Source: Alphaproteobacteria bacterium (GTDB lineage: Bacteria; Pseudomonadota; Alphaproteobacteria; Caulobacterales; Aquidulcibacteraceae). Taken from it: a DNA stretch of 46,421 nt. Position 1 is the first letter of the stretch, and each line of letters opens with the position of its first letter. The notes under the pieces are model-generated. The model was not told where the DNA came from. It ran no database searches and saw nothing but the letters and a program-made list of their open reading frames with translations. Below, in pieces: positions 39,030-43,575 of this stretch. Location of the stretch: assembly GCA_026400735.1 (NCBI GenBank), contig JAPLOL010000092.1, positions 1-46,421 on the forward strand, given 5' to 3'. The translations under genes were made by a program, and so were the position numbers.

Positions 39030-40991
39030 ATGCTGGACAAAGAGCTCACCTTTCGCGGCCTCATCCTTGGCGCGATCATCGCCGCCGTCTTCACGGCGGC
39101 GAATGTTTATCTGGGACTGAAGGTTGGCTTGACGATCGCGTCGTCGATCCCGGCGGCCGTCATCTCGATGGGCATTCTGCGCGCGTTCAAGACCGGCAAC
39201 ATCCGTGAGAACAATATCGTGCAAACCGTCGCCTCCGCCGGCGGCACGTTGTCTTCGATCGTGTTCGTGCTGCCGGGCTTGGTGATGCTTGGCTATTGGA
39301 ACGGGTTTCCGTTCTGGGCGACGTTCCTGGTTTGCACACTTGGCGGCTTTTTGGGCGTGATGTTCTCGATCCCGCTGCGCCGCGCGCTGGTGGTGAACAC
39401 GCCGCTGCCGTTTCCGGAAGGCGTCGCTGCGGCGGAAGTGCTGAAGGTTGGCGCGCATGGCGATGAAGCTTCGCCCAATGCGCTGGAGCGCGAGAAGGGG
39501 CCGCTGATTGTGCTGTGGGCCGCGCTCGTTGCGGCGTTCATGCAGATCGTGACGTTTACGGGCGCTGCTGCGGCGACGCTGACGAAAACATTTCGCACTG
39601 GGGTTTATGCAGCGACTGGCGTCGATTTTGGCTTCTCGCTGGCGTTGCTCGGCGCGGGGCATTTGGTTGGTTTGTCGGTTGGCATTGCACAGCTCATCGG
39701 CGTGCTGATTTGCTGGGCGGTGTTTGTGCCGATGTGGACGCACGTCGACCCCGGCGGCGATGTTGCGGCGGTGGTCACCGAGACATGGCGGCGTGTGCGC
39801 TTTGTGGGCGCGGGCGCGATTGGCGTTGCGGCGATCTGGAGTTTGATCAAGCTGGTGAAGCCGGTGATCGACGGCATGATCGCGACCGCGCAAGCGAACA
39901 AAGCGCGCGGCAGCGCCAGTGGCGCTTACGAAGATCGCGATATTCCGAGCCTTATGATTGTGGGGATCAGTGCGCTGTCGCTCGCAGGCGTCGGGTGGTT
40001 GCTGTGGGATTTCATGCAAGGCACGCCGCTGGCTGCGATGTCGCCGGTGCTGATCGGCGGCGGCTTGATCTACGTGGTGGTTGTCGGATTTTTTGTGGCG
40101 ACGGTGGCGGGCTATATGGCGGCGCTGATTGGCGCTTCGAACAGTCCGGTCTCAGGCATTGGTATTCTTGCCACCGTGATCGGGGCGTATTTGCTCTCGC
40201 TCTTTGTTGCGCCAAGCCTTGGTGTTGGGGCGACGCAGGCGCTGGTGGCGTTCGCGCTGTTTTCGGTGTCGATCGTGTTCACGGTGGCGACGATCTCGAA
40301 TGACAACTTGCAGGATTTGAAGACCGGGCAATTGGTCGGCGCTTCGCCGTGGAAGCAGCAGGTGGCTTTGCTGGTTGGCGTGGTGGCGGGCTCGATCGTC
40401 ATTCCGCTCATTCTGAATGTGCTGAACCATTCATACGGATTTCCGGGCGACCCTAATCGCGATGCGGTGATGGCTGAGCCGCTGAACGCGCCGCAAGCGA
40501 CGCTGATTTCGACGATTGCTTTGGGCGTCCTCAACGCCAACCTGGATTGGTTCACCATTGGCATCGGCGCTGGCCTTGGCGTTGCGCTTTGTGTTCTGGA
40601 TGAAATTCTCGGTGCGTTGAAGCTGATGCGTCTGCCGCCTTTGGCGGTTGGCATTGGTATTTATCTGCCGATGTCGTCGACCATTGCCGTGACGTTCGGC
40701 GCGATCACGGGCTGGTTCTATGAACGCGCGGCGAATAAGAGCCCCAACGCGGAGATGCTGAAGCGCTTTGGTGTGCTGATGGCGTCGGGGCTTATCGTCG
40801 GCGAGAGTATGCTGGGCGTGTTGAACGCGGCAGTGGTGGCGGCCACCGAGAACGACGCGCCGTTCCGGCTGCCGTTCTTCGGCGAAGGCTTTGCGCCGAT
40901 TGCCGAGATCATCGCGGTGGTGATGTTCGTGGTGCTTACGTTCGGGCTTTATCGCTGGGTGTGGGCGCAAACGAAGTCGCGCGCCAAGTAA
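39030..40991 (+). CDS. OPT family oligopeptide transporter
   Basis: A 653-residue inner-membrane transporter with about 15-16 membrane segments. The N-terminal ELTFRGLILGAIIAAVFTAANVYLGLKVG and the segment NTPLPFPEGVAAAEVL are signatures of the OPT superfamily's bacterial branch. It carries a characteristic second-half SNDNLQDLKTGQLVGASPWKQQ. Family members import peptides or metal-chelate complexes driven by protons. The substrate here is unknown. The TIR gene starts 3 bp after its stop. Confidence 0.93.
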   Translation: MLDKELTFRGLILGAIIAAVFTAANVYLGLKVGLTIASSIPAAVISMGILRAFKTGNIRENNIVQTVASAGGTLSSIVFVLPGLVMLGYWNGFPFWATFLVCTLGGFLGVMFSIPLRRALVVNTPLPFPEGVAAAEVLKVGAHGDEASPNALEREKGPLIVLWAALVAAFMQIVTFTGAAAATLTKTFRTGVYAATGVDFGFSLALLGAGHLVGLSVGIAQLIGVLICWAVFVPMWTHVDPGGDVAAVVTETWRRVRFVGAGAIGVAAIWSLIKLVKPVIDGMIATAQANKARGSASGAYEDRDIPSLMIVGISALSLAGVGWLLWDFMQGTPLAAMSPVLIGGGLIYVVVVGFFVATVAGYMAALIGASNSPVSGIGILATVIGAYLLSLFVAPSLGVGATQALVAFALFSVSIVFTVATISNDNLQDLKTGQLVGASPWKQQVALLVGVVAGSIVIPLILNVLNHSYGFPGDPNRDAVMAEPLNAPQATLISTIALGVLNANLDWFTIGIGAGLGVALCVLDEILGALKLMRLPPLAVGIGIYLPMSSTIAVTFGAITGWFYERAANKSPNAEMLKRFGVLMASGLIVGESMLGVLNAAVVAATENDAPFRLPFFGEGFAPIAEIIAVVMFVVLTFGLYRWVWAQTKSRAK

Positions 40992-40994
40992 CGC

Positions 40995-41792
40995 ATGAGC
41001 GACGTCTTCATCTCGTATAAGCGCGAGGACAAAGCTCGCGTTGAGGCGCTCTACACGCTGCTGCTCGACCTCGACGTGCCGGTGTGGTTCGACGCCGGTA
41101 TCGAAGTGGGCGTGGAGTGGGAGAGCCGTATTCTCGAACAGATCGAGACGGCCAAGGCTGTGATCGTGTGTTGGAGCTTTGCTGCGGTGTCCTCGCATTG
41201 GGTGGCGCGCGAGGCGAAGATTGGATTGGATCGTGGGATACTGGTGCCGGTGACGATCCATCCCTGCGCGCTGGTATCGCCGTTCGATGCGCTGCAATCG
41301 GCCGATCTCACGCGCTGGGATGGTACGCCGGACGACGCAGAGATTCAGAAGGTGTTGCTACGCCTTGGCCTTTTGCTCGGCAAAAAGAACATCGCCCGCA
41401 ACGCACGCTTGCGCGGCGGTGGTCAGAAGGAAGCGATGGTCGATTTGATGCGCTCGTTGCTCGTCGACCGAGCGCTTACCGGCGGGACGCCCCTTACTTA
41501 TAAAGAAGCCGAAGAGGCCCTTCGTTCCGCCGCGCGCGAGGAAGACTTGCACATTGGTGAGTTCGACCAACACTCACTCTGGGGCGCACTCGATGCGATC
41601 GCGGAGCAATGCCGCCGTCGCCGCGAACCGCCTCTCGATGTGCTCGTCGTCAGCAAGGACACTGGCCGCCCAGGTCGCGGGTATTGGCAAAAGCACGCTT
41701 TCCTGCCGGGCGATGGCGATGAGTTGGAGAAGCAGGTCTTCGAGCGTCACCTTGCAGCGGTGCGCGCTTCGGATTGGAGCAGGGACGTTTAG
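40995..41792 (+). CDS. TIR domain-containing protein
   Basis: A 265-residue cytosolic protein. Residues 1-115 are a TIR domain: DVFISYKRED (3-12), DVPVWFDAGIEVG, ILEQIETAKAVIVCWS and SSHWVAREAKIGLDRG. Glu73 occupies the position of the catalytic Glu of TIR NADases. A linker around 125-165 leads to a C-terminal domain (about 165-260) with GEFDQHSLWGALDAIAEQC, then EPPLDVLVVSKDTGRPG and GYWQKH. I recall the latter pattern from uncharacterised bacterial proteins but know no name. It is placed 3 bp after OPT, without a good ribosome site, and overlaps the P450 stop. Confidence 0.9.
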   Translation: MSDVFISYKREDKARVEALYTLLLDLDVPVWFDAGIEVGVEWESRILEQIETAKAVIVCWSFAAVSSHWVAREAKIGLDRGILVPVTIHPCALVSPFDALQSADLTRWDGTPDDAEIQKVLLRLGLLLGKKNIARNARLRGGGQKEAMVDLMRSLLVDRALTGGTPLTYKEAEEALRSAAREEDLHIGEFDQHSLWGALDAIAEQCRRRREPPLDVLVVSKDTGRPGRGYWQKHAFLPGDGDELEKQVFERHLAAVRASDWSRDV

Positions 41793-43027
41793 ATCAGGAC
41801 ATCCAAACGCTGCAGACCGTTGAAGAACGGCAGCGTTCGCTTCTCCGGTCTCTCGTCCGGCCGCGCCAAGCGCAGGTGCGGGAAGCGCTGGAACAGCTTC
41901 ACCAACGCGGCCTGCGCTTCGATCCGCGCCAAAGGCGCACCGATGCAGATGTGCGATCCCCCGCCGAAGGCCACGTGTGGGCCTGGTTTGCGGGAGACGT
42001 CAAAGGCGTCGGGGTTTTCGAAGATGTCCGGATCGTGATTGGCGGAGCGAAGCAGCGAGATCACCGATTGTTTTCCCTTCACGGGGCAACCGCCAATTTC
42101 CATGTCGTGCGGCGTGACGCGCGCAGTAATGTCGACCGGCCCATCGAAACGCAAAATCTCCTCGACGACTGGAGCGACGATGCCGGGATCGGCCTTCAGC
42201 TTCGCCAACTCAGCAGGGTGCGTTAGCAGCGCGTAGACGCCGTTGCCGATGAGATCGCTGGTGGTGAGGTTGCCGCCGACGAGAAGCCCGATCAGATTTG
42301 AAATGATCTCACGGTCCTTCAGTTGCGCGCCTTCCGCCTGCAGCTTCACGACGTCGCTGATGAGATCGTCTTTCGGATTGGCGCGGCGGTCGGCGATTTG
42401 AGCTTCGAAATAGGCGCTGATCGCTTCGCCGGAACGCGAGAGGTACGCTTCCTGATCCGGTGTGCGGAAGGGGTTCAACACCTGGATGACGCCTTCGGAC
42501 CAGTCACGAAACTCGCTGCGGCGTTCGATGTCGACGCCAAGGATAGCGCCGATGACGTCGATCGGGAGCGGGATGGAAAAATCGCCGAGCACGTCAAAGC
42601 CGCCGCGCGGTTCGACGGCGTCGAGCTTTTCATCGATGATTTCATCGACGAGCGGTTTGCATTTGGCGGCGCGCGCATAAAGCGCCTTAGCGATGGGCGG
42701 GCGGACGCGTGAATGATGTGGCTCGTCCATGAGCAGGATCGAGTTGGAGCGCTTCTCGCCGGTCTCGGGATCAGCTTCAAAGCTTTCCATGAGGCGCTGA
42801 TTGAACGGACCTGGCGGATCGACCTTGTCCGGCCCGCGAAGCATAGTGCGATCGTTCAGTAACTCGCGCGCGAGCTTGTAGCGCGTGATGACGTGCGATC
42901 CGGCCATGTCGTCGCGATACACTGAGTGGCTTTGGCGCAGCTTGCGGTAGAGCGCATGCGGATCGTCGCGGAACGCCGGATTAAGCGGCGTGAGCTGCAG
43001 GATCGGGGGCGGTGGATCATCGGCCAT
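41789..43027 (-). CDS. cytochrome P450
   Basis: A 412-residue soluble bacterial P450. The haem-binding loop FGGGSHICIG carries Cys361; EEILRF is the ExxR motif of helix K. In helix I the oxygen-activating AGxD/ETT is GGNLTT, so the acidic residue is replaced by Leu while the Thr pair is retained. The class resembles P450s of sphingomonads and Caulobacterales. No ferredoxin or reductase is adjacent, so electron partners lie elsewhere. It is convergent with the TIR gene (4-bp overlap). Confidence 0.93.
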   Translation of the reverse strand: MADDPPPPILQLTPLNPAFRDDPHALYRKLRQSHSVYRDDMAGSHVITRYKLARELLNDRTMLRGPDKVDPPGPFNQRLMESFEADPETGEKRSNSILLMDEPHHSRVRPPIAKALYARAAKCKPLVDEIIDEKLDAVEPRGGFDVLGDFSIPLPIDVIGAILGVDIERRSEFRDWSEGVIQVLNPFRTPDQEAYLSRSGEAISAYFEAQIADRRANPKDDLISDVVKLQAEGAQLKDREIISNLIGLLVGGNLTTSDLIGNGVYALLTHPAELAKLKADPGIVAPVVEEILRFDGPVDITARVTPHDMEIGGCPVKGKQSVISLLRSANHDPDIFENPDAFDVSRKPGPHVAFGGGSHICIGAPLARIEAQAALVKLFQRFPHLRLARPDERPEKRTLPFFNGLQRLDVLI

Positions 43028-43075
43028 TCAAGAACCCTGCGCCTCGCATGCTCGGCTCGCAAGCTGACGCGAACG

Positions 43076-43546
43076 TCAGGCGCGCTTTTCCTCAAGCATC
43101 TTTGTAAGCCGATCCACTGCCGCGGTCAGCTGTGCGATTTCCTGCTCGCGTAACAGATCGATCTTCTCGTGCAGCGTCTCGATTTCTAGCTCGGCTTTAC
43201 AGTTGATGTCGTAGTCCTCGATGCTGCGCCGGCGGTCGATCTCAGCCTGCCGGTTTTGGCTCATCATGATCACAGGTGCGGTATAGGCCGCCTGAAACGA
43301 AAGCAGCAGATTGAGTAAGATGAACGGGTAGGGATCTACGCGAGCCGAACTCACTGCATTGAACGCGATCCATGAAAACAGTAGCGCGCTCTGGATGAGG
43401 ATAAATCGCCAGGACCCCACGACATTGGCCACGGTGTCCGCCGCGCGTTCGGCGAAGCCCTTGGGCGCCAAGATGTCCGGCGGCGTTGGGCGCTCCCGTG
43501 CGCGCTCGCGCAATTGATCAAGCAGGTCCTGTGCGGTGTCGGTCAT
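43076..43546 (-). CDS. DUF1003 domain-containing membrane protein
   Basis: A 156-residue protein. Two membrane segments (about 45-63 and 75-92) contain the DUF1003 signature: GSWRFILIQSALLFSWIAFN, then DPYPFILLNLLLSFQAAYTAPVIMMSQNRQ. A coiled-coil-like charged helix (113-154) follows. Function unknown. It stands 48 bp upstream of P450 and may share its transcript. Confidence 0.92.
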   Translation of the reverse strand: MTDTAQDLLDQLRERARERPTPPDILAPKGFAERAADTVANVVGSWRFILIQSALLFSWIAFNAVSSARVDPYPFILLNLLLSFQAAYTAPVIMMSQNRQAEIDRRRSIEDYDINCKAELEIETLHEKIDLLREQEIAQLTAAVDRLTKMLEEKRA

Positions 43547-43575
43547 GGATGCGCTCCGGCAAACAAGCAGTGAGC

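Follow-up and report, generated by a model that had tools for sequence, protein, structure and literature searches.

For only a few bacterial TIR proteins is it known how they sense infection. In SPARTA, nucleic-acid sensing gates the TIR domain. Restriction enzymes of the wHTH(SBD)-SRA-HNH type, which depend on phosphorothioate DNA, join a reader of the winged-helix type to an effector (PMC10853773). For AGT and ATL, PMC10779285 describes a common helix-turn-helix with an arginine finger and a tyrosine, used for base flipping, and also fusions of both to EndoV endonuclease in archaea. The combination of a TIR domain with an AGT/ATL-like C-terminal domain was not found described in the open-licence literature searched.

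We analysed a window of 46,421 nucleotides, a single contig of a 3.58-Mb draft genome from the Aquidulcibacteraceae (Alphaproteobacteria), which encodes a protein composed of a TIR domain and a second, C-terminal domain (Table 1). Our preferred reading, to which we assign a probability of roughly 0.45, is that of a self-contained sensor-effector in which a TIR NADase is gated by an AGT/ATL-like, DNA-reading C-terminal domain, probably in anti-phage defence.

Table 1. Features of the TIR protein gene and its upstream neighbour, in window coordinates
Feature	Position	Strand	Basis
TIR protein gene	40995..41792	+	ORF, 265 aa plus stop; homologues; purifying selection
TIR domain, residues 1-125	40995..41369	+	Pfam TIR_2, structure alignment
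Glu73 codon	41211..41213	+	Invariant in 17/17; aligned to Glu of AbTIR and Brucella TcpB/BtpA TIRs
Linker helix, residues 133-143	41391..41423	+	Secondary structure of AlphaFold2 model
C-terminal domain (putative DNA reader with AGT/ATL-like winged helix), residues 145-265	41427..41789	+	Model, family recurrence, hhalign and fold comparison with AGT
Tyr169 codon	41499..41501	+	Conserved in 40/41 family members; aligns with invariant AGT helix-turn-helix Tyr
GEFDQHSLWGAL, residues 188-199, running into helix 192-208	41556..41591	+	Sequence and AlphaFold2 model
PPLDVLVVSKDTGRPG motif, residues 212-227	41628..41675	+	Family signature P.L...VV......P..G
OPT transporter, variable neighbour, judged outside the system	39030..40991	+	Pfam OPT 1.9e-100

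Inspection of the open reading frame agrees with the sequence-only reading in coordinates, start, length and motifs; the OPT ORF ends at 40991, and a gap of 3 bp separates it from the ATG (40995). The gene is real and more than a chance ORF, since it has 16 further full-length homologues in genomes of the same genus (41–93% identity), invariant motifs and a dN far below dS. Full-length homologues occur in 17 of the 30 genus genomes searched, the window's own genome counted, and the remaining 13, some of which are incomplete, have no full-length match. Glu73, RREPPL and PGxGYxQK are invariant in all 17 aligned full-length sequences. For each half of the protein, five pairwise comparisons gave dN of 0.05–0.19 against dS of 1.1–1.8; the resulting dN/dS of about 0.04–0.15 over both halves (Nei-Gojobori, five homologues) is a rough value because dS is near saturation. 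A contig search returned eight named relatives with 61–93% identity (five from Hyphomonadaceae, one from Caulobacterales and two from Alphaproteobacteria MAGs) and a ninth match, in a Ruminococcus MAG, that covers residues 4–73 only.

The N-terminal half matches Pfam TIR_2 over residues 4–119 (E 8.5e-21; 75.1 bits against a cut-off of 28). The AlphaFold2 model of the whole protein, computed from 17 input sequences, has a mean pLDDT of 90.1 and a pTM of 0.82, and its comparison with TIR structures in VIA-align 2 yields Z scores of 13.5–18.2 among the 50 matches listed, the best alignment covering 122 residues with an rmsd of 2.4 (Z 18.2). AbTIR (Z 14.2), SARM1 (Z 13.6–15.2 among the matches listed) and other NADase TIRs share this fold over residues 1–130, whereas their second domain differs from that of the window protein. 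In HMMER alignments to solved TIRs, Glu73 coincides with the glutamate of AbTIR and of the Brucella TcpB/BtpA TIR domains. The TIR assignment with a catalytic-type glutamate therefore stands, and none of the 17 aligned full-length sequences lacks this residue. Because the TIR fold is combined with an invariant Glu73 that aligns with the AbTIR glutamate, NADase activity of the domain is likely.

The TIR-APAZ TIRs of SPARTA are the best prokaryotic structures among the matches listed (Z 14.1–16.8), and SPARTA has a TIR gated by a nucleic-acid-sensing part, as is proposed here; however, the structural match ends by residue 140, searches with the C-terminal domain alone returned no TIR-APAZ structure among the matches listed, and the five scanned neighbours include no Argonaute. 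As to Thoeris, the ThsB_TIR model (PF08937) reaches 17.0 bits against a cut-off of 21.2, the PADLOC ThsB model matches with E 0.019, and ThsA is absent among the five neighbours; Pfam TIR also remains below its cut-off. PADLOC and NCBIfam matches of the window protein cover the TIR half only (SAVED_TIR, PDC-S66 and ThsB; retron TIR and ThcB4). Besides this gene, the genome contains seven matches to the TIR half (contigs of L002–L008), and other genus members contain several each; TIR proteins seem to be abundant in the genus.

The C-terminal domain is compact, conserved and confidently modelled (pLDDT 89–90; 88.7 when modelled alone). It had been called unrecognised, and this is true insofar as Pfam, NCBIfam, PHROGs and PADLOC contain no convincing family match; in the sequences seen it corresponds to no known effector-binding domain with a described role. 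It is not unique, though: standalone copies exist, and so does a fusion to an HNH nuclease. Single Pfam matches among 11 C-terminal domains to zf-HC2 (E 0.0089) and DUF5770 (E 0.068), one member each, were taken as chance. With a profile of 11 homologues (A2), we found the domain in at least 6 of 398 Pseudomonadota genomes (own included), where it either forms a protein of its own, about 150 aa long, or precedes an HNH_2 nuclease. Profile A6, built from more diverse members, matches at least 42 of the 398 genomes at E 1e-3 (own included), a count containing many weaker matches that were not individually checked; at least 29 of 385 Alphaproteobacteria genomes match at E 1e-4 (own included), and within the taxonomic family profile A4 matches at least 24 of 60 genomes. 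The rows of A6, A7 and a 41-member set were hand-picked for diversity; rows nearly identical to others and members interrupted by in-frame stops (L123, L184) were among those left out. In the 41-member set, Tyr169 is the top conserved position (40/41), equal with Pro226.

The order of TIR and C-terminal domain is the same in three genomes of a second genus (L224–L226) and one of a third (L227), and in L228 and L229 a different TIR precedes a version of the domain with a canonical TYxE motif; PADLOC models also recognise the TIRs of L224, L227 and L228. The HNH fusion is encoded by L069:976-1785 on the minus strand, with the family member N-terminal to HNH_2. Its HNH half resembles PADLOC HNH models and the phosphorothioate-DNA restriction enzymes (68.9 bits, E 3.9e-19, below the whole-protein model cut-off of 180), and the C-terminal domain stands where those enzymes have their usual reader. 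The likeness to the wHTH(SBD)-SRA-HNH enzymes is confined to this half, whereas their N-terminal region is unlike the C-terminal domain by profile; we accordingly rejected the sulphur-binding region as a relative (hhalign score 14.4, based on two sequences only). In three further proteins (L191:1477-2484, L136:1456-2361 and L230:1460-2392) the domain is followed by what appears by eye to be a PD-(D/E)XK-like region, and in L128 by an EVE-like region. Pfam recognised neither PD-(D/E)XK nor EVE in L128 and L136, PADLOC scans of L191 and L230 yielded no PD-(D/E)XK match, and PDB searches no confirmation; the EVE-type PDB entry matches L128 with E 1.7 only. The nuclease regions of L136, L191 and L230 look alike by eye, and L230 comes from the window's genus.

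To place the fold, a Foldseek search of the C-terminal part had been proposed, which returned no significant PDB match (best E 3.1); by sequence, the PDB yielded no match for the single protein and only chance-level matches for profiles of the domain. When the 42 Foldseek candidates were compared in VIA-align, human AGT cross-linked to DNA (1t39) came first over 85 residues with an rmsd of 3.9 and a Z of 5.2, practically the same as ScpB (Z 5.1) and lower than models that match nothing clearly will commonly reach. SRA, EVE and APAZ were not among the matches listed for the domain. Profile comparison points in the same direction. Against the AGT DNA-binding domain of relatives, hhalign gave 4% with A4 (12 columns), about 66% (65.9%) with A6, 73% with A7 and 82% with the 41-member profile (score 32.7, 47 columns). 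For the latter, the best of 100 column-shuffled AGT profiles scored 19.2, AsnC 18.9 and MarR 23.2; with A6 and A7, AsnC reached 3–11% and MarR 16–28% (for A6, MarR 27.6% versus AGT 65.9%). The profile alignment superimposes Tyr169 on the invariant tyrosine of the AGT helix-turn-helix.

The profile similarity to AGT/ATL (PF01035) extends over the helix-turn-helix including this tyrosine, but the domain is longer, lacks the PCHR/PWHR motif and has no Pfam match above cut-off. Pfam gives no PF01035 match to the window protein; one plasmid member matches PF01035 (E 0.012, 15.8 bits against a cut-off of 27) and TIGR00589 (E 0.024), both below cut-off. None of the 25 A7 rows contains PCHR or PWHR; the 12 AGT sequences in A5 do have PCHR. 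Since PCHR is missing, we did not file the domain as a member of AGT/ATL. Taken together, the concordant profile and fold comparisons suggest that it weakly resembles the AGT/ATL DNA-binding winged helix.

By analogy with SPARTA and with modification-dependent nucleases, in which a reader is joined to an effector, the preferred sensor-effector reading would work as follows. The C-terminal domain would hold the N-terminal TIR NADase in check until it meets its ligand, for which DNA of a phage or plasmid with an unusual or damaged base is the likeliest candidate. The ligand-bound domain would then let the TIR domains assemble, upon which NAD+ would be cleaved and growth of the infected cell stopped. 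The DNA-reading step is suggested by fusion logic and weak remote homology. A DNA sensor is more likely than a ring-nucleotide sensor, because the module exists both as a standalone protein and in a fusion with an HNH nuclease, and shows weak AGT/ATL-like similarity. If the TIR protein reads DNA directly, a single gene would link recognition of modified DNA to NAD+ depletion. A small protein family, unnamed in the libraries searched and carried by plasmids and phages, would then also have a role that can be tested.

A rather unlikely alternative is that the C-terminal domain senses a ligand other than DNA, for instance a protein of the phage or some small molecule, with its winged-helix-like fold binding protein. 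The weak fold match, in which ScpB scores as well as AGT, is compatible with this, but the fusion to an HNH endonuclease argues for DNA as the ligand, and AGT scores above the other DNA-binding controls. A lead towards such a sensor came from VMAP-M0 (PF19916), a region proposed to sense invaders (PMC7159879), which L145 (E 0.0021) and L133 (E 0.068) touch below cut-off. This lead failed: the best member scanned reaches 19 bits against a cut-off of 25.9, none of 299 genomes exceeds the cut-off, and we dropped it because two of the three model matches in these genomes, including the best, lie in frames judged non-coding by eye. The third match is itself a member of the C-terminal domain family.

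We then turn to the locus, for which an operon with the OPT transporter had been suggested. As a local description, given the 3-bp gap, this is adequate, but it does not hold up in the comparison across intervals. In 16 of the 17 full-length carriers the TIR gene lies between a ClpP-like and a ThiE-like gene, the copy of G019 being elsewhere. OPT is directly upstream in 8 of these 16 TIR-bearing intervals (window included), downstream in 1 and absent from 7. Eight intervals without the TIR gene were seen whole (those of seven non-carriers and G019), and two of them contain OPT. This count leaves out G017, whose TIR protein is TIR-only, L152 (G013), which ends at a contig edge, three genomes in which no ClpP match reached the cut-off (G003, G015 and G024), and one, G028, whose single ClpP match has 40% identity. 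OPT is therefore present in 9/16 TIR-bearing and 2/8 TIR-free intervals (Fisher p = 0.21). Because its presence is not significantly tied to the TIR gene, the neighbourhood survey that had been proposed leaves the operon idea unsupported, and we rejected a partnership, as each gene is found without the other; the arrangement looks incidental, although a weak link is compatible with these numbers.

Pfam identifies OPT, DUF6644 (below cut-off), P450 and DUF1003 among the five neighbours scanned, one of which has no match, and finds nothing that supports defence, no ThsA and no Argonaute. The earlier statement that no classical partner is nearby is thus upheld for these five, and a single-gene system is possible. 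The window's OPT (39030–40991) is 89% identical to that of L055 and only 65% to those of L047 and L056, whose TIR proteins are 86–87% identical to the window's; it looks as if OPT had been replaced, or lost and regained. The ClpP–ThiE interval (window 39095–43575; loci L047–L063 and L147–L155) is flexible in the genus: OPT, TIR, P450 and DUF1003 are present in some loci and absent from others, as are genes that by eye resemble PfpI/DJ-1 and phosphoribosyltransferase. ClpP, ThiE, SleB, DUF805, FBA, PfpI/DJ-1, phosphoribosyltransferase, PD-(D/E)XK and EVE-like are names given by eye from translations.

Defence genes are mostly mobile. Counting against the preferred reading, the chromosomal interval of the TIR gene is stable, and at the same ClpP–ThiE place G017 carries a 165-aa TIR-only version from which the C-terminal domain is absent. 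The conserved position leaves room for a housekeeping or stress role, in which a DNA-damage-responsive TIR would lower NAD+ or make a signal after alkylation and take no part in phage defence. Purifying selection fits such a role, as does the C-terminal similarity, which, if real, is to alkylation-repair proteins. We nevertheless regard it as unlikely: the gene is dispensable, as the 8 whole intervals and 13 of 30 genomes without it (full-length matches; some genomes incomplete) indicate, and related domains are found on plasmids and phages. A catalytically silent TIR scaffold working with an unlinked partner would suit the seven additional TIR matches in the genome and an NADase activity that is a prediction, but is very unlikely given the invariance of Glu73 and of many TIR residues around it.

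For the preferred sensor-effector, the anti-phage purpose is probable by analogy. With an HNH-type member as query, we found 16 plasmid records, and none with the window's domain as query. Three of seven plasmid members inspected have restriction- or modification-type genes within about 3 kb: a cytosine methyltransferase with DUF4928, an EVE gene with a DUF262 gene, and a DNA-phosphorothioation-associated gene. The other four neighbourhoods have no such gene set, and one of them has a PD-(D/E)XK nuclease family gene. A standalone member (L074:1179-1592) lies on a 4.8-kb Klebsiella plasmid that also carries a radical SAM gene.

A wider proposal, which we find possible but doubtful, is that of an undescribed immune architecture: a one-protein TIR NADase triggered directly by altered or modified DNA through an acceptor-less, alkyltransferase-like winged helix, the reader being common to HNH and probably other nucleases and the phage copies perhaps acting as decoys or anti-sensors. 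If so, the same reader would lead to restriction or to NAD+ depletion, depending on the setting. Phages do carry free copies of the domain, in Gordonia phage Gray by sequence and in others by fold match, and these are possible decoys or readers of phage DNA. The whole TIR protein gave 14 pattern matches and no relatives in viral contigs. In tblastn searches of phages, two queries returned nothing, three were weak (E 0.02–0.03), and a TIR-linked member matched a Gordonia phage protein with E 8e-5. Among viral models, Foldseek matched five with a probability of 1.00 and E 0.002–0.045, none reaching E 0.001; three of the five are from phages PaBG (258 kb), Noxifer and JA13. The Gordonia phage protein, the product of gene 78 of phage Gray (L233:3884-4297), is matched by the 41-member profile with 2.3e-16 among the frames of an 8.3-kb stretch.
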